DNA of 64,000 nucleotides from Deltaproteobacteria bacterium CG11_big_fil_rev_8_21_14_0_20_45_16 (lineage in GTDB: Bacteria; Bdellovibrionota; UBA2394), in the NCBI GenBank assembly GCA_002787535.1, contig PCXB01000041.1:57100-121099 (forward strand), given 5' to 3'. The notes under the pieces were generated by a model. The model had not been told where the DNA came from and did not search any database. It saw nothing but the letters and a program-made list of their open reading frames with translations. The position numbers and the translations under genes were made by a program. Position 1 is the stretch's first letter. Every line of letters starts with the position of its first letter. Of this stretch, positions 13,288 to 46,383 are shown in pieces.

Positions 13288-14331
13288 GTGAGAAACCAAA
13301 AAGTAAATATCGCTGTAGTTGGGGCGACGGGGATGGTCGGCCGAGAAATGCTTCGAGTTTTGGAAGATCGAGATTTTCCAATCGATCAGCTATTTGTTTT
13401 TGCTTCAGAGAGAAGCGAGGGCGAAATCGTCGCTTTTAACGGCAAGGACTATCGAATCGAGGCCTTGAAACCAGAGGCCTTTGAGGGCAAGTCCATTGAT
13501 TTTGCTTTGTTTGCGACCGATGCGGCGATTTCGGCGGAGTATGCGCCTCGGGCGGCTGCTGCAGGCGCTGTCGTAATTGATAATTCGAGTCATTTTCGAA
13601 TGCAAAACGACATTCCTCTTATTGTTCCCGAAGTGAATCCGGACGAGATTTCCAAAGCCGCTCAACATGGGATTATCGCCAATCCCAATTGCTCCACGAT
13701 TCAGATGGTTGTTTGTTTGAAAGCACTTAATGATTCGGTACCGATCAAGCGAGTGGTGGTTTCCACTTACCAATCGGTTTCCGGAGCCGGTTTGGATGCT
13801 ATGAATGAATTACAAACTCAGGTGGGCGAATTATTTGCTGGTCGCGACGTCAATGCCAAAATTTTTCCTCATCGTATTGCCTTTAATTGCATTCCTCATA
13901 TTGATACCTTTTTGGAAAATGGCATGACTAAGGAAGAGATGAAGATGATCAATGAAACTCGAAAAATCTTAAATCTTCCCAACCTCCTGATTACGGCTAC
14001 GGCCGTTCGAGTTCCGGTATTTATTGGTCATTGTGAGAGTCTGAATATAGAATTTAATTCAGATTTTAGCGCGGAAGAAGCGCGTGAAGTCTTGCATAAT
14101 ACACCGGGACTTGTCGTCATGGATGATCCAGGATCTCGCTTGTATCCAACGGCCTTTGATTCGGCCGGACAGGACGAAATTCTTGTGGGTCGAATTCGCA
14201 AAGATGAGTCAGTGCCTTTCGGACTTCATCTGTGGATCGCCGCTGACAACATCAGAAAAGGGGCCGCTACCAATGCCGTTCAAATTGCCGAACTTTGTTT
14301 GGAAAAAAACTTTAGCCGCGTTGCTGCTTAG
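13288..14331 (+). CDS. asd: Aspartate-semialdehyde dehydrogenase
   Basis: VGATGMVGREML, DNSSHFRM, PEVNPDEI, IANPNCSTIQMVVCLK, VSTYQSVSGAG, GHCESLNIEF; GTG start with AAGGAG SD. Confidence 0.95.
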   Translation: MRNQKVNIAVVGATGMVGREMLRVLEDRDFPIDQLFVFASERSEGEIVAFNGKDYRIEALKPEAFEGKSIDFALFATDAAISAEYAPRAAAAGAVVIDNSSHFRMQNDIPLIVPEVNPDEISKAAQHGIIANPNCSTIQMVVCLKALNDSVPIKRVVVSTYQSVSGAGLDAMNELQTQVGELFAGRDVNAKIFPHRIAFNCIPHIDTFLENGMTKEEMKMINETRKILNLPNLLITATAVRVPVFIGHCESLNIEFNSDFSAEEAREVLHNTPGLVVMDDPGSRLYPTAFDSAGQDEILVGRIRKDESVPFGLHLWIAADNIRKGAATNAVQIAELCLEKNFSRVAA

Positions 14332-16339
14332 TGCTTTCTTCCTTTCGCCAGCTAAGGCGATTGAAGATGACGTCTTTTCTTTGAAGGGGCAAGTTCAGGG
14401 GCTTCGAGGGGTTAACGTTCAGCATATGGCTTTGCGTTCAGATGGACGTTATCTTTTCTATTCAACGGGTGGGGCAAGCTGGAATGTGATCGATCTTCTC
14501 GATATGGTGACGAAGGCTGCCGAAGATGTGGCCGTAGATGCCAGCGTTCAGGGACTTTTTTTGGATGGGGACAGGCGCTTGATTGTAGCGACGACAGAAG
14601 GCGCACAATATTTTGATGTCACAGAGGTTTTTGAGCCTGAAGAGGAAACTAAAAATGGGGCGGCTGATAAATATGTTCGACCCACTTCAGCACAAACGAG
14701 TGTCGAATCGGTCTGTATGAATGCAGCCAAGACGCTGTACTTTTTAGAAATATCCTCGATCGAGAACCGATATAACATTATTCGCTCGGTTGCCGATAAA
14801 AAGGATGTGGATGAAGTAGAGTGGGCGACCTTGTTTCCTTCCTTTCCCAATCGATTAACACCTGATGGAATTATTCGATGTGCGGCCAATGAGATTCTCT
14901 TGGGGGCTGAAGATTTGGAAGAAGCGGATTTCAATCTTACGATAGCACGCATGGCCTATTCGAGTTTTGGATCTTCGGCGGAGACCTATGTCATTCCGGA
15001 TGATGCTTTGGGAGTACTCAAAACTGATGTGGAGCTCTTTGATATTAAGGACTTTGTATTGTCGCCAGCTAAAGACAGGGCGTTTTTGATGTTCAATGCC
15101 GCCCTGGAAAGCTTTCAAGATAAGGCCTCCCATACTCAAATCTTGTCTTTGCCAACGAGCTTATCGGGTGATTTTAGTATCGGCATGGGAGCTGCGGGAG
15201 CGGCTATTGCCGCCTATCGCTTAAGTGAAACCGATTACCTCTCCTTTTTTATGGGGCTTAATTATTTTGATAGTGTGCTCAATCCAGATGCCGACCAATT
15301 GCTAACTTTGCCGATGGCTTCCTTCAGTTCGTCGCTACCGAGTAATGTTTTCGGCGACGATGAAGATAGGGGTGAGGCAGTATATGGATCTTCTTCTATT
15401 GGCAGCGTAATGGGATCCGAATGGCTTTCTACCAAGAATGATCAGTATGTTTATGGTCTAAGCGAGAGCTCAGGAGTTAGTCTTTTAACGAAGGGGCCTT
15501 CGCTTGAGTTTTCGGTTTCGCCTGGATCGACTCTGACCAGCTCACAACCGTTGAGTTTTGGATTGATTTCGGATCGTGAGGTTAAAGTTGAGATTCGTTA
15601 TGATCCGGATGCGGACCCGAAGGGAGATTCTGGTGGTTTGGATTTTGAAAAGGGACGATTGATCAAGTCGCTGTATCTTACGAAGGATACGGCTCAAAAT
15701 ATTCAAATTACAGCTAGCGAATTGTCGATTTCCAAGAATGGCGATCAGGGCATCACGATATTCGCTCAACCCAAAGAAGTTCTAGATGGTTCCCAGACCG
15801 CACGTTTGGGTGCGACATTTAGTTATGATCCTCCGCCAAAAGCTGTGACAGGATTTCGACTCGGTGCTGGCGATCAAAGTATCCATGTCTACTTTTCGAC
15901 CAATCTTAGTTCGGATGATATCCGCGAAGTTCAAGTTTATTTTAGTTATACCGCTTCGGATCTCGACACTCTCCCTACTTCAGATATTGAGAAAGTCGCC
16001 TGGTCCCGAACTGTAACGGGAGTCGGCAGTCGAAGTCTCACATCTCCTACGGTTCTTCCCAGCTCTGGGTCTTTGGGAAAACATGTGATCGCTCCCATCG
16101 AAAATAATCAGGATATTTGCGTTCGCGTTTTGGTAGTCGATACTTCCGGACAGTATAGCGATACCAATCCTGCAGCCCTTTGTGATTCACCCGTGAAGAC
16201 TCGAAGTTTAGCTGCGGCCTTTGGGGGAACGAATTCGTGTGCGATGACTCCATTAGGTTCCATGCCAGTGGTGTTTTTGTTCTTTCTATTGCTTGTCTCC
16301 CGGTACCGGTGGATTAGAAGTCAGAGATTTCTGCCCTAG
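14273..16339 (+). CDS. Secreted/cell-surface protein with a C-terminal Cys-TM-basic tail (possible sorting signal)
   Basis: In-frame ATG at 14273 gives signal peptide MPFKLPNFVWKKTLAALLLSAFFLSPAKA; Fn3-like region (PPKAVTGFRLGAGDQSIHVYFSTN); C-terminus GGTNSCAMTPLGSMPVVFLFFLLLVSRYRWIRSQRFLP. The track start at 14084 lies deep inside asd and is unlikely. Confidence 0.68.
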   Translation: MPFKLPNFVWKKTLAALLLSAFFLSPAKAIEDDVFSLKGQVQGLRGVNVQHMALRSDGRYLFYSTGGASWNVIDLLDMVTKAAEDVAVDASVQGLFLDGDRRLIVATTEGAQYFDVTEVFEPEEETKNGAADKYVRPTSAQTSVESVCMNAAKTLYFLEISSIENRYNIIRSVADKKDVDEVEWATLFPSFPNRLTPDGIIRCAANEILLGAEDLEEADFNLTIARMAYSSFGSSAETYVIPDDALGVLKTDVELFDIKDFVLSPAKDRAFLMFNAALESFQDKASHTQILSLPTSLSGDFSIGMGAAGAAIAAYRLSETDYLSFFMGLNYFDSVLNPDADQLLTLPMASFSSSLPSNVFGDDEDRGEAVYGSSSIGSVMGSEWLSTKNDQYVYGLSESSGVSLLTKGPSLEFSVSPGSTLTSSQPLSFGLISDREVKVEIRYDPDADPKGDSGGLDFEKGRLIKSLYLTKDTAQNIQITASELSISKNGDQGITIFAQPKEVLDGSQTARLGATFSYDPPPKAVTGFRLGAGDQSIHVYFSTNLSSDDIREVQVYFSYTASDLDTLPTSDIEKVAWSRTVTGVGSRSLTSPTVLPSSGSLGKHVIAPIENNQDICVRVLVVDTSGQYSDTNPAALCDSPVKTRSLAAAFGGTNSCAMTPLGSMPVVFLFFLLLVSRYRWIRSQRFLP

Positions 16340-16405
16340 CCTTTGGAATCCCAAGGTTTTTCCGGGGAGTTCCCGTATTTAGAATTCGAGATAAAATATA
16401 TATTC

Positions 16406-17002
16406 ATGACAGCATTGGTCGAACCAGAGCTACGGGCGCCCTCCCTTAAGCAAGTAAAGGAAGTGTGCGCGAATCTCAATAAGGCAGCTATCGTAACCGG
16501 CATCGCCTTCCTTGGTCTTCAGATAATCGTTGAGCTGCTCAAGACCTGGAGATATATGGAGTTCGTAAGTGTCTTTGAAAGTCTGTTTAATTTAGCAATT
16601 TCTACTGGCGTCTCCATTACGGTTTGTGCCGTTGCAATCATGGTTCAAAGAGTTTTGCTAAGCAAATGGTCAGATAGACAGAAGCAGCTTATCCAAATGG
16701 GGAAGGTCGTTGAGGTTAAAATTATCGGGAGTCAGATGGGACATATGGATGGCGACTTAGGAATCAGGGAATGGGATCTCAAGATGGTTCTTAATATCGC
16801 CTTTAGCATAATGAAATTTATGCAAAACTGGGTGCCGACCTATAGCTTTCAATTTGAAGTTGTGCTCCCCAATGGAAGAAAATTCAAGCGCTACCAACAC
16901 TGGATGTATCGCGAGCAGCAACCCCTTAAGTTCGAAGCGGATAAATCTTACGCTTTTGTCGATCCCCGTAAGCCCGAAAATTCTCGTCTGATTTTTGGTT
17001 AA
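16406..17002 (+). CDS. Hypothetical membrane protein (2 TM)
   Basis: ORF 16343..17002; ATG at 16406 preferred over TTG at 16343, which falls in a hairpin after the upstream stop. Confidence 0.5.
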   Translation: MTALVEPELRAPSLKQVKEVCANLNKAAIVTGIAFLGLQIIVELLKTWRYMEFVSVFESLFNLAISTGVSITVCAVAIMVQRVLLSKWSDRQKQLIQMGKVVEVKIIGSQMGHMDGDLGIREWDLKMVLNIAFSIMKFMQNWVPTYSFQFEVVLPNGRKFKRYQHWMYREQQPLKFEADKSYAFVDPRKPENSRLIFG

Positions 17003-17083: not shown

Positions 17084-17168
17084 AAAAAAATTGGGCCTAG
17101 CGTTTGAGAAATCGGAGGGGAGGGGATTGAGATCTTTTGGCGCCAGGCCCAAACTCTTAATAACTTGT
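17084..17168 (-). ncRNA. Candidate sRNA: hairpin with C-rich loop ending in an intrinsic terminator
   Basis: Minus strand: 12-bp stem UUGGGCCUGGCG/CGCUAGGCCCAA (one G-U) followed by U7; loop contains AAUC-CCCUCCCCUCC-GAUU; upstream TTGACA-N17-TATTTA (17203-17175). Confidence 0.5.
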
Positions 17169-17233
17169 TCCCTGTAAATATGACCGATGGCGCAGATTGT
17201 CAAAATAAAAAGTTAAGATTTTGTTGGGACGCG

Positions 17234-18907
17234 TCAAACCGCATAAATATGAGGAATTACTACGGGTTTTAGTCCATTTTCTCGTCTTAGATAGCGTTTG
17301 ACCTGAAGGCTGATCTCCTCTTCAAGGGACTCAAAGTCTACATCTGAGTCGCCCCTATACTCGGACAAAAGTTCCTCAAGGCTTTGCTCTAATTCAATCC
17401 AATCGATTTCGCCAGGTAGGCCTAAGCTTTCAAGTTCAAGCCGCATAAGAGGCTTAAAATCCTTGCGTCTGACAACGGCACTTACCAGCACTATGCCTTG
17501 CGATCCCATCTTTCGTCGAAACTTTATCGTTTCTTCTGGCACAAGATTTCGAGCTTCATCCAAGAATAACTTTCCTGCCGTCACACGTTCTGCCAACTTT
17601 CGAAAAACTTTATCGGAAAGCTCAACAACATCGCCATTCTCAGCCACAAAAGTCTTTGTGTTTGGGATAGTGTTCTTCGCAAGTTCATAATGTTTGCATA
17701 GCATTCGATACTCACCGTGCACGGGTAAAAAGTTTTGAGGACGAACCCACTCAAAAATGGTTTTGAGCTCATCCTGTCGCGCGTGACCCGATACGTGGAC
17801 AAAGGCATCACGAAAATCAATGACCTTGGCGCCCAACCGATGCAGGTTGTTCATCAGAAGTGAAATGCGCTTTTCATTTCCAGGAATATGTCGGGATGAA
17901 AAAATGATCGTATCGCCTTCGTCGATATCAACATCAGGATGCGTGCCGTGACTCATTTTAGAAAGTGCTGAGCGAGCTTCGGCCTGTGTTCCCGTGGACA
18001 AAACCATGATTTTGTTGGAAGGGATATCGTCAATTTCTCGAGACGTAATCAATTGCGACCAATCATAACTCAAATGTCCGTGCTGCCGAGCGAGATCCAC
18101 ATTGCTTAATACCGAACGACCACAGAGCATTAAGCGCCGCCCAACTTTGGCAGCTATATCCATTAAAATTTGAATGCGATGGATATTGGACGAAAATAAG
18201 CTGACTATGATTTTCCCCGTCTTAACGGAGCCAATAAGTTGCTCGAGGGATTCACTCAGGGCTTTTTCCGACAGACTCCAGCCAGGACTTTCGACATTAG
18301 TTGAATCTGACATCAAAAGCCGAACACCTTGATCTCCAAGTTCTCTAAAGCGTTGCTCATCAAACTGCCAATTATCAATAGGATCGTGATCAATCTTAAA
18401 ATCACCAGTATGCACGAGCATTCCTTGAGGCGTTTGGATAGCCAAACCGACGCAGTCCACTAAACTGTGGGTAACGCGCAGTGGTTCAATCTCAAATACT
18501 CCAGCTTTGAACTTCTTCCCTGGTGTGATTTTATTAATTTTCTTTTCGGGATATTTGCCAGCCTCTTTCATTCGAGGTTCCAGCATCGCTAACGTAAAGT
18601 CCGTGCCATAAATCGGCGGACTACCGATCTTATGATGAAGGTAACCGACGGCGCCAAGGTGATCTTCGTGCGAATGAGTCAAAACGAGAGCATCCACATC
18701 AATGTCGTATTCGTGAAAAAAATCAATTTTTGGCATGATAAGATCCACCCCTGGTAAATACGCATCCGGAAAGCTCACACCGCAATCAATCACCATGCAG
18801 CGGCCGCGATGAACCAGGGCCATCATATTCATTCCAATTTCGGAAAGGCCTCCCAAGGGCACTAAGAAAAGCGATGGGGAGTCATGGAAGAGGCGCTTTA
18901 AATTCAC
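17234..18907 (-). CDS. rnj: Ribonuclease J
   Basis: LGGLSEIGMNMMAL, LTHSHEDHLGAVGYL, THSLVDCVGLAIQTPQG.VHTGDFKID, HVSGHARQDEL, FLPVHGEYRML. Confidence 0.95.
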   Translation of the reverse strand: MNLKRLFHDSPSLFLVPLGGLSEIGMNMMALVHRGRCMVIDCGVSFPDAYLPGVDLIMPKIDFFHEYDIDVDALVLTHSHEDHLGAVGYLHHKIGSPPIYGTDFTLAMLEPRMKEAGKYPEKKINKITPGKKFKAGVFEIEPLRVTHSLVDCVGLAIQTPQGMLVHTGDFKIDHDPIDNWQFDEQRFRELGDQGVRLLMSDSTNVESPGWSLSEKALSESLEQLIGSVKTGKIIVSLFSSNIHRIQILMDIAAKVGRRLMLCGRSVLSNVDLARQHGHLSYDWSQLITSREIDDIPSNKIMVLSTGTQAEARSALSKMSHGTHPDVDIDEGDTIIFSSRHIPGNEKRISLLMNNLHRLGAKVIDFRDAFVHVSGHARQDELKTIFEWVRPQNFLPVHGEYRMLCKHYELAKNTIPNTKTFVAENGDVVELSDKVFRKLAERVTAGKLFLDEARNLVPEETIKFRRKMGSQGIVLVSAVVRRKDFKPLMRLELESLGLPGEIDWIELEQSLEELLSEYRGDSDVDFESLEEEISLQVKRYLRRENGLKPVVIPHIYAV

Positions 18908-18975: not shown

Positions 18976-19674
18976 ATGATCCGCCTTTATGTGGACGAAG
19001 ACTTTGAGCCTGGCAAGTGCTTGGAGCTTCCCAAATCCGAACTTCATTATTTTAAGTCTGTTCGACGTGGGAAGGGAGACGAAATTCTCGAGTTATTCAA
19101 TCGAAAAGGGCAAGTCGCAAGAGCAAGCTTTAAAGATAAGGCCCTCAAGGTTTCAGAGGTCATTGAAATGGAACCAGCCCGCCATCGCATACGTATAGCA
19201 TTAGGATTGCCCGATACCAGTGTGGCCAAAAAAGTCTTGGCGGCGGTCTCGGAATTGGGTGTTGAGGAGTTAATTTTTTTTGCAGCGGGCCGCAGTCAAG
19301 CTGCAAAAAAGAGGCTGGAGAAACTTGAAGATTGGGACAAATTTAGCATCGAGTCCGCTCGTCAATGCGGTAGAGCGCGGCCCCTAAAAATTTCAAGCCT
19401 ATCTCTGAATAAGATTCTAGATCTATGTGTAAAAAATCGAATCGTTTTGGACGAAGTTAATTCTGAGACAGGTGTATACTTTGATCTGGGCGAGCCACGC
19501 GATTTCTTACTATTGGTTGGCCCCGAAGGCGGATGGACTGCAGAAGAGCGTAGCAAAATTTATGAATCTGGTTTTCAAAGCTTACATTTTCCGACTCCAA
19601 TTTTAAAAGTAGAAACAGCGTGCACAGCAGCCTGTGTTTGGGCCTTGATGCCCAGTTTGTTACTTAATCGCTAA
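18976..19674 (+). CDS. rsmE: 16S rRNA (uracil1498-N3)-methyltransferase
   Basis: ELHYFKSVRRGKGDEI, ALGLPDTSVAKKVLAAVSELGVEELIFF, LLVGPEGGWTAEE. Confidence 0.9.
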   Translation: MIRLYVDEDFEPGKCLELPKSELHYFKSVRRGKGDEILELFNRKGQVARASFKDKALKVSEVIEMEPARHRIRIALGLPDTSVAKKVLAAVSELGVEELIFFAAGRSQAAKKRLEKLEDWDKFSIESARQCGRARPLKISSLSLNKILDLCVKNRIVLDEVNSETGVYFDLGEPRDFLLLVGPEGGWTAEERSKIYESGFQSLHFPTPILKVETACTAACVWALMPSLLLNR

Positions 19675-29014: not shown

Positions 29015-29785
29015 TCAATCGGGAATTATACGATCATCCGGATTCATAACGAGGTAGTCGACCTTATTAAATGATCCGCCATTCATGGTGCGGATATGAA
29101 ACAAATACCGACCTGTTTTGATTTCGCGCTCCCCTTCAAAGTCTGGGATTGCCTGGTGAACCAAGAAAGGAGTGTCCTTTTCTTGGCAATCACCCTCATT
29201 CATTCTAACGACCGGCAAGACCTCAATCAGATTATTTCGTGTTTTGGCGATTGTTATGCTTTCGATATCAAGGCAAGTGTTCGTAAAAGTTCCCGACAAG
29301 GTAATCATTCGTCGAAGTCCAAGGGGATCTTTTTGAATAATCATGCTGTCGACTGGCGCATAGGTGTTGTCGTCAATTCTTGAACTTTTTGCCTGTCTTA
29401 CGCGAAGATCTGAAAACTCGCGCGAGAGTTCATTATAGGAACGAATCTTGTAGTTACCTTCAGGCAAGATACCAACATCGACTACTTTAATTTGGCGATT
29501 GAGAACTTGAAGGCAGAAGCCCTCTCGTTTATGAGCTTCGATATAGACCATAAGGACATTGGGTTCTTGGTCGTGCGGAATGATGGCTGCTCGTCCGATT
29601 TCTTCGCAGGTGTCTTTAAATTCAACTTCAATAATGACCTGTGCCAAGTCGTTATCGTCAAACCCGTAAGGTACGTAAACTTCTTTAATTGGCGGATTGA
29701 AGCGCTCGTCCGCGTTCCAATTCATCGGATCCTGAAAAAATTGTCCTGTTAGCATTAAAAATAGGCCGCCCCAAATGATCTCCAT
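29015..29785 (-). CDS. Hypothetical exported protein
   Basis: ORF 29015..29800; ATG at 29785 gives MEIIWGGLFLMLTGQFFQ signal-like start. Confidence 0.5.
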   Translation of the reverse strand: MEIIWGGLFLMLTGQFFQDPMNWNADERFNPPIKEVYVPYGFDDNDLAQVIIEVEFKDTCEEIGRAAIIPHDQEPNVLMVYIEAHKREGFCLQVLNRQIKVVDVGILPEGNYKIRSYNELSREFSDLRVRQAKSSRIDDNTYAPVDSMIIQKDPLGLRRMITLSGTFTNTCLDIESITIAKTRNNLIEVLPVVRMNEGDCQEKDTPFLVHQAIPDFEGEREIKTGRYLFHIRTMNGGSFNKVDYLVMNPDDRIIPD

Positions 29786-45060: not shown

Positions 45061-46383
45061 ATGAGGGAGTGGTGGGGAGGAAAATCCTTGGAATATCGGA
45101 AGTTAGGTCGATTTCATATAGAAGGATCTATTGCTCGTGGGGGCATGGGTGAAATAGTGCGTTCCGTGGACGATGCTGGACGTCCCATTGTCCTTAAGAC
45201 GATTCTTGATTCATTCCAAGATGATGAGCGCTTCCAGGATCTCTTCATTCGAGAGGCAGAGATCACCTTTCAACTTCGACATCCAAATATTGTCCGTGCT
45301 TATCGATTTGATCGCGTTGGAAAGCGACTCGTTTTAGCCTTGGAGTATTTGGATGGTATAAATCTTAAAGAATTACTGAGAAAAATTTACGACCAGAAAC
45401 TTCATTTACCTCTTATGGTGGCTTGGGCAATTGCTCAGCGAGTTTTGAAAGGTCTTGATTACGCTCACAAAAAGAAGGGATCGGAGGGAGATCACTTAGG
45501 GATCATTCATCGTGATATCAATCCTTCGAATATTTTTTTAACCTATGCTGGAGAAGTGAAGGTTCTAGATTTTGGGATCAGCAAAGCTACGAATTTGGAA
45601 GTTCACCAACTGACACCCAAAAATGAACTAAGGGGAAAGATTTGCTATTTGGCTCCAGAACAAATTCAATCCAAACCCATCGATCATCGAGCGGATATAT
45701 TTTCGTTTGGAATTGTCCTTTGGGAAATGTTGGCGGGACGCCCACTTTTTGTTCGACCATCGGATGGTGAAGTGATGGAAGCTATTGTTCAAAATAGTTA
45801 TGAGTCCTTAAAGACATTTCGGCCGGATGTGCCAGAGGAGCTTGAAGGTGTTATCCGTCGGGCTCTCTCTAAAAATGCGAACAATCGTTTTGAAGACTGT
45901 CGAGAATTTGAAGAAGCCTTAGAATCGGCCTTCTACAAAGCAATCATGCCCGGTGCCTCGGAAGAAGAGATATCGGTGTTTGTGCGCAGCTTGTTTGGAC
46001 AGGCACAGGCCCAGCAAGACCCACAGTTTCTATCAGGATACGCATTTTTGATGGCTCAAGCGCCTGGACACGAAAGTCGAGGATTAAAATTGGCAGCGGA
46101 GCTAGCCGAAGAGTATCCGACTCGTCCTTTCATTCAATTGAATTATGCAAGAGCCTTGCTGTTAAAAGGGGATCGAAACCTGGGACTTAGAATGATGCGA
46201 AAACTTGCCCGTGTCGACAGTTTGGAATCTAGTATTCAAGACATCTTGGAATGGATAGGGGTTCGGAGGCGTCCCCCACTCGCAAGTTTAAGCCGCTCCC
46301 ATCCTTTGAATTATGTTCTAGGCAAAATTCGTCATCGGTTGATGGGGCCGACCGCCTATCAAGAACAGTTTCTAACCGCTTAA
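45061..46383 (+). CDS. Serine/threonine protein kinase
   Basis: IARGGMGEIVRSV, VLKTI, IIHRDINPSNIFLTYAGEVKVLDFGISKA, YLAPEQ. Possible upstream GTG at 45031. Confidence 0.93.
   Translation: MREWWGGKSLEYRKLGRFHIEGSIARGGMGEIVRSVDDAGRPIVLKTILDSFQDDERFQDLFIREAEITFQLRHPNIVRAYRFDRVGKRLVLALEYLDGINLKELLRKIYDQKLHLPLMVAWAIAQRVLKGLDYAHKKKGSEGDHLGIIHRDINPSNIFLTYAGEVKVLDFGISKATNLEVHQLTPKNELRGKICYLAPEQIQSKPIDHRADIFSFGIVLWEMLAGRPLFVRPSDGEVMEAIVQNSYESLKTFRPDVPEELEGVIRRALSKNANNRFEDCREFEEALESAFYKAIMPGASEEEISVFVRSLFGQAQAQQDPQFLSGYAFLMAQAPGHESRGLKLAAELAEEYPTRPFIQLNYARALLLKGDRNLGLRMMRKLARVDSLESSIQDILEWIGVRRRPPLASLSRSHPLNYVLGKIRHRLMGPTAYQEQFLTA

Follow-up and report, generated by a model that had tools for sequence, protein, structure and literature searches.

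A candidate anti-Shine-Dalgarno small RNA encoded downstream of the RNase J gene in one family of Bdellovibrionota

Does the C-rich hairpin that follows the ribonuclease J gene (rnj) of Deltaproteobacteria bacterium CG11_big_fil_rev_8_21_14_0_20_45_16 merely end the rnj message, or does it belong to a small RNA (sRNA) gene in its own right? The hairpin lies in a 64,000-nucleotide (nt) stretch of contig PCXB01000041.1, referred to here as the window, within a 2.44-Mb draft genome of 99 contigs. Judged from sequence comparison, the element is most likely a genuine single-copy, family-restricted small-RNA gene. The favoured explanation, held at a probability of roughly two in three, is that it specifies a trans-acting anti-Shine-Dalgarno sRNA of about 85 nt. 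Translational repression in trans had been proposed in the initial annotation of the window, and it is still the best-supported function, by sequence evidence only.

The element and its conservation

All parts of the element are read from the minus strand, 3' of rnj (17234-18907, minus strand; Pfam RNase_J_b_CASP, RMMBL and RNase_J_C), its conserved upstream neighbour. A T-rich stretch just precedes the -35 element TTGACA (17198-17203), which is followed at a 17-nt spacing by a putative -10 hexamer, TATTTA (17175-17180). The predicted sRNA (17084-17168) takes its start from the position of the -10 hexamer and its end from the T-run. Its terminator stem pairs a 5' arm, TTGGGCCTGGCG (17141-17152), with a 3' arm, CGCTAGGCCCAA (17091-17102), over 12 bp that include one G-U pair, and the T7 tract of an intrinsic terminator follows (17084-17090). 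The 38-nt loop carries CCCUCCCCUCC and contains a 29-nt block, AGATCTCAATCCCCTCCCCTCCGATTTCT (17107-17135), that is identical across five genera; within it lies the C-rich anti-Shine-Dalgarno segment CCCCTCCCCTCC (17114-17125). Promoter hexamers, stem, C-rich loop and T7 tract all stand where the initial annotation had placed them. Since the T-run follows the stem on the minus strand only, and the plus strand scores 18 bits with covariance model R1 against 100 bits for the sRNA, a plus-strand or bidirectional element was rejected.

The comparison set consisted of 369 genomes of the phylum, namely the five genomes of the family, representing five genera, and 364 others. RNase J of the four other family genomes is 45-53% identical to that of the window. 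Each family genome carries exactly one copy of an 18-nt core, CCCCTCCCCTCCGATTTC, with zero mismatches; with one mismatch allowed, the core is present in 0 of the 364 others. All family copies share the strand of rnj and follow it at a distance of about 100-200 nt, so the order rnj-sRNA is kept in five of five. Model R1, run over the 369 genomes, recovered the five family copies only (93-104 bits); the next match, at 23 bits (G003 C184, L133), was judged a chance hairpin when its sequence was read. When rnj and the DNA following it were aligned across the five genera, no invariant run was longer than the loop block (28 columns, or 29 in alignment A3), while the adjacent 1.67-kb rnj coding sequence shows 52-68% nucleotide identity and invariant runs of at most 8 nt. 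The other long invariant runs downstream of rnj are AGTTTGGG in the stem, the 8-nt TTTTGACA at the -35 element, and the T-run, present in all five genomes. The check put forward in the initial annotation, whether relatives keep the stem together with the C-rich loop, therefore comes out positive in all five family genomes, with the loop invariant.

Viral contigs gave no match, and a C-rich terminator downstream of rnj was not evident at 24 loci from other families, two of which end at a contig edge. In a 97% complete relative (G001; 2.32 Mb used, 2,116 genes called), no significant sibling copy was found with R1 in the part of the genome searched, and among 263 T-run hairpins this one alone has the loop. 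As a separate observation, contig C2 of G001 bears on its minus strand another T-run hairpin, whose loop, ATCCTCCTC, is anti-Shine-Dalgarno-like. No Rfam family, 6C included, matched the element, whether at the gathering threshold or with E values of up to 5 admitted. Neither is it a small peptide gene, because the reading frame is broken between relatives by a 1-nt indel just before the invariant block.

The predicted structure is stable and keeps the C-rich segment exposed. The 85-nt RNA has a folding energy of -25.8 kcal/mol (z = -4.8; none of 200 shuffled sequences folded as well), and the same terminator hairpin is predicted for all five family sequences with z from -4.1 to -5.2. The 12 C-rich bases of CCCCTCCCCTCC are predicted to be 92-100% unpaired, at an opening cost of 0.06 kcal/mol. 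Inside the loop, AATC (17128-17125) and GATT (17113-17110) can pair to display CCCTCCCCTCC. The AAUC/GAUU helix described in the initial annotation can thus form, though it is one of two near-equivalent inner pairings; together with AGA/UCU it is invariant in the five sequences and hence uninformative for covariation. The outer stem tolerates exchanges across the family (U-G/C-G/U-A, C-G/U-A and A-U/G-U).

Predicted pairing and candidate targets

If the exposed loop acts on messenger RNAs (mRNAs), its best partners should be sought at translation starts. These were examined in G001 with the author's own simple versions of a gene caller, a start rule and a signal-peptide predictor. The examination drew on counts of k-mers from 5 to 8 nt, on more than one energy threshold and on three loop-decoy sets, for which the p-values given below are uncorrected. 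Loop pairing of -18 kcal/mol or lower was predicted at 63 start regions versus 12 coding control stretches. The best partners are G-rich ribosome-binding sites, often of exported proteins, and pairing is predicted with GGAGGGG, GGGGAGG and GGGGG, in keeping with the complementarity first noticed from the window. Among the loop's best 50 partners, 30 are predicted to be exported, against 27.6% of all genes (p 1e-6); the best 50 of the 16S tail include 15. Among all 66 orders of 10 C and 2 U, the natural order took first place for mean energy over the best 50 sites in exported genes, second place for the total of strong sites and fifth place for the strong sites that lie in exported genes. A count that does not depend on the loop gave GGAGGG as the most enriched 6-mer before exported genes (22/581 versus 13/1524). 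Two narrower modes of action were rejected: one perfectly matched target, as GGAGGGGAGGGG has no second exact 12-mer copy in its own genome and none is shared in the relatives, and rnj as the sRNA's own target, for which the duplexes are moderate and unremarkable.

Conservation of the target sites was assessed with eight exported targets chosen by hand out of the high-scoring predictions for G001. They include an M14 peptidase, an OEP/TolC-like protein and an S41 peptidase, and their N-terminal parts were searched in the other four family genomes. In each of the 15 matches, a G run stands ahead of a plausible start. Under a single start-choosing rule, GGGG precedes 14 of 14 scored orthologues of these hand-picked targets versus 2 of 19 control orthologues (p = 1.5e-7), the controls being a random draw from the exported genes that in G001 have an ordinary Shine-Dalgarno site and no GGGG. 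One control family sits beside a target within one gene cluster, and its members are mostly without the G run. In the window itself, a candidate target encodes a predicted exported protein of 256 amino acids (29015-29785, minus strand) and carries GGAGGGG (29798-29792) before its ATG, as GGAGGGGAAATTTATG; its best homologue in G001 has a G-rich ribosome-binding site and ranks there among the top 20 predicted targets. A possible further target is the kinase-like protein at 45088 (plus strand), which has GGGGAGG before a TTG start and a G001 homologue with GGGG.

Taken together, a mechanism can be outlined. Transcription of the sRNA would begin from the TTGACA promoter and stop at a Rho-independent terminator, with CCCCUCCCCUCC exposed in its large loop. 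A search for Hfq in the five family genomes, some of which are incomplete drafts, found none; without a recognisable Hfq, the pre-opened loop may pair directly with the G-rich Shine-Dalgarno sequences of many mRNAs. Pairing with GGAGGGG, GGGGAGG or GGGGG leaders would block 30S binding, and a prominent share of the targets may encode exported or outer-membrane proteins, which are the leading candidate for the regulated class.

Several results weigh against this explanation or narrow it. That the RNA is transcribed, pairs with mRNAs and represses them is inferred, as are its regulon and a possible inducing signal, and genome G004 has a poor -10. Compensatory evidence for the stem amounts to one double change versus the commonest pair, which is not significant with five sequences. 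Ten decoys with permuted C/U order gave 25-29 exported genes in their best 50, nearly the natural level, so the enrichment mainly reflects G-rich ribosome-binding sites. Shine-Dalgarno sites of every kind, classical ones too, are stronger in exported genes, and the excess of GGGG at matched 16S pairing energy is weak (p = 0.03-0.9). Beyond the hand-picking of the eight targets, outgroup orthologues from genomes without the RNA, nearly all M14 peptidases, have GGGG in 10 of 27 cases, which implies that the G-rich sites partly predate the RNA. A second target batch and an outgroup control batch gave matches with no leader sequences to read, and pairing energy over 50 window orthologue pairs showed no significant overall correlation.

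Biogenesis and rival explanations

How the RNA would be made is a question of its own, and it bears on the alternative that survives best. The same anti-Shine-Dalgarno action could be exerted by a trans-acting sRNA processed from the 3' untranslated region (UTR) of the rnj mRNA, as the initial annotation had also suggested. The element does lie on the rnj strand, at a short and similar distance after the gene in five of five genomes, with no terminator noticed between, and such processing is conceivable as biogenesis. Against it, every one of the five has TTGACA in the interval from rnj to the hairpin, and in most a TATTTA-like hexamer follows after a 17-nt spacer (TATTTA in three of the five, TACATA in one and TAGAAG in one). 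A consensus promoter scan of the region called no promoter, the -10 being non-canonical. The conserved -35 element favours a promoter of its own, and the sRNA is probably transcribed from this TTGACA promoter; a 3' UTR origin is rather unlikely.

A slightly less probable alternative is that the sRNA binds or titrates a protein, either a C-rich RNA-binding protein or RNase J itself, instead of mRNAs. A short seed would not require all 29 nt of the block to be preserved, with AGAUCUC and GAUUUCU beyond the C-rich segment, and the locus always adjoins rnj. Yet the flanks are explicable by inner helices, and the invariant segment complements G-rich ribosome-binding sites that recur before predicted targets and are kept in their orthologues. 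Least probable of all is a plain rnj terminator, or a 3' UTR stability element, whose loop is incidental: although the hairpin comes right after rnj and shares its strand, a stem and T-run suffice for termination, and a bare terminator would not conserve a 29-nt loop far beyond rnj itself, nor have a -35 element before it in every family genome.

The favoured anti-Shine-Dalgarno sRNA could be extended into a broader proposal, in which it serves as an Hfq-independent, family-specific global regulator of the exported proteome through a decoy anti-Shine-Dalgarno loop, perhaps tied to RNase J activity in view of its fixed place after rnj. This extension is speculative and on balance doubtful. If true, one sRNA would set the translation of those envelope and secreted proteins whose ribosome-binding sites have stayed G-rich. 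The conserved G-rich leaders provide a concrete list of candidate targets. The RNA family, not recognised by Rfam, belongs to a little-known lineage with no Hfq detected, and a single observation on raw sequence has led to a conserved RNA gene.

Known C-rich-loop sRNAs and the genomic neighbourhood

Several bacterial sRNAs carry C-rich loops, among them the cuckoo RNAs and CcsR of Rhodobacter, and RepG of Helicobacter pylori uses a C/U-rich terminator loop. For RepG chiefly one variable G-repeat target is known, and its sequence was compared with the element via Rfam only. The analogy to cuckoo RNAs drawn in the initial annotation extends to the C-rich loop and to nothing else; 6C/B11 and NfeR1, whose mode of action is proven, are closer. 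In Rhodobacter, RNase E matures CcsR out of a transcript shared with the DUF1127 protein gene ccaF1 (PMC10253847), whereas the element here is a single copy after rnj. In mycobacteria, 6C/B11 acts without an identified Hfq or ProQ, its C-rich loops pairing with the G tracts of ribosome-binding sites, and B11 represses several genes, including an ESX secretion component (PMC10470900). The likeness lies in a C-rich loop that here is predicted to pair with G-rich ribosome-binding sites and would repress their genes; 6C/B11 has two such loops in contrast to the single one inside a terminator hairpin. NfeR1/alpha-r14 of alphaproteobacteria keeps an ultraconserved CCUCCUCCC anti-Shine-Dalgarno motif unpaired while its stems vary, and its confirmed targets include periplasmic ABC-transporter components (PMC10746234). 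It has three hairpins, each with CCUCCUCCC, as opposed to one with CCCCUCCCCUCC; the present element also differs in sequence (CCCUCCCCUCC) and locus and has no Rfam match.

With the functional class of anti-Shine-Dalgarno C-rich-loop sRNAs, the element shares a conserved complementary segment, invariant in five genera and predicted to be unpaired at a level of at least 0.92, as well as the orthologue-conserved target sites (14/14 versus 2/19), to be read with their hand-picked targets and the G-rich sites of the outgroup. Since it has one hairpin instead of two or three, another sequence and no model match, it is best described on these comparisons as a new single-hairpin sRNA family, in predicted function like 6C/B11 and NfeR1 and a member of neither. 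It would apparently be another independent case of a strategy known from mycobacteria and rhizobia.

Around the locus, the four relatives have a convergent gene directly after the element, encoding a large protein whose C-terminus resembles, as judged by eye, that of the product of 14084-16339 (plus strand) in the window. In all five genomes (the window gene and L003-L006), this convergent neighbour ends in an NSC/KSC-type motif, a hydrophobic stretch and basic residues, by eye reminiscent of MYXO-CTERM-like sorting signals. In this genome only, an open reading frame of 219 amino acids without a Pfam match (16343-17002, plus strand) lies between the element and the convergent gene. On the other side, divergent to rnj, is a predicted RNA methyltransferase (RsmE-like; 18976-19674, plus strand), and a similar N-terminal sequence is found divergent in the relatives.
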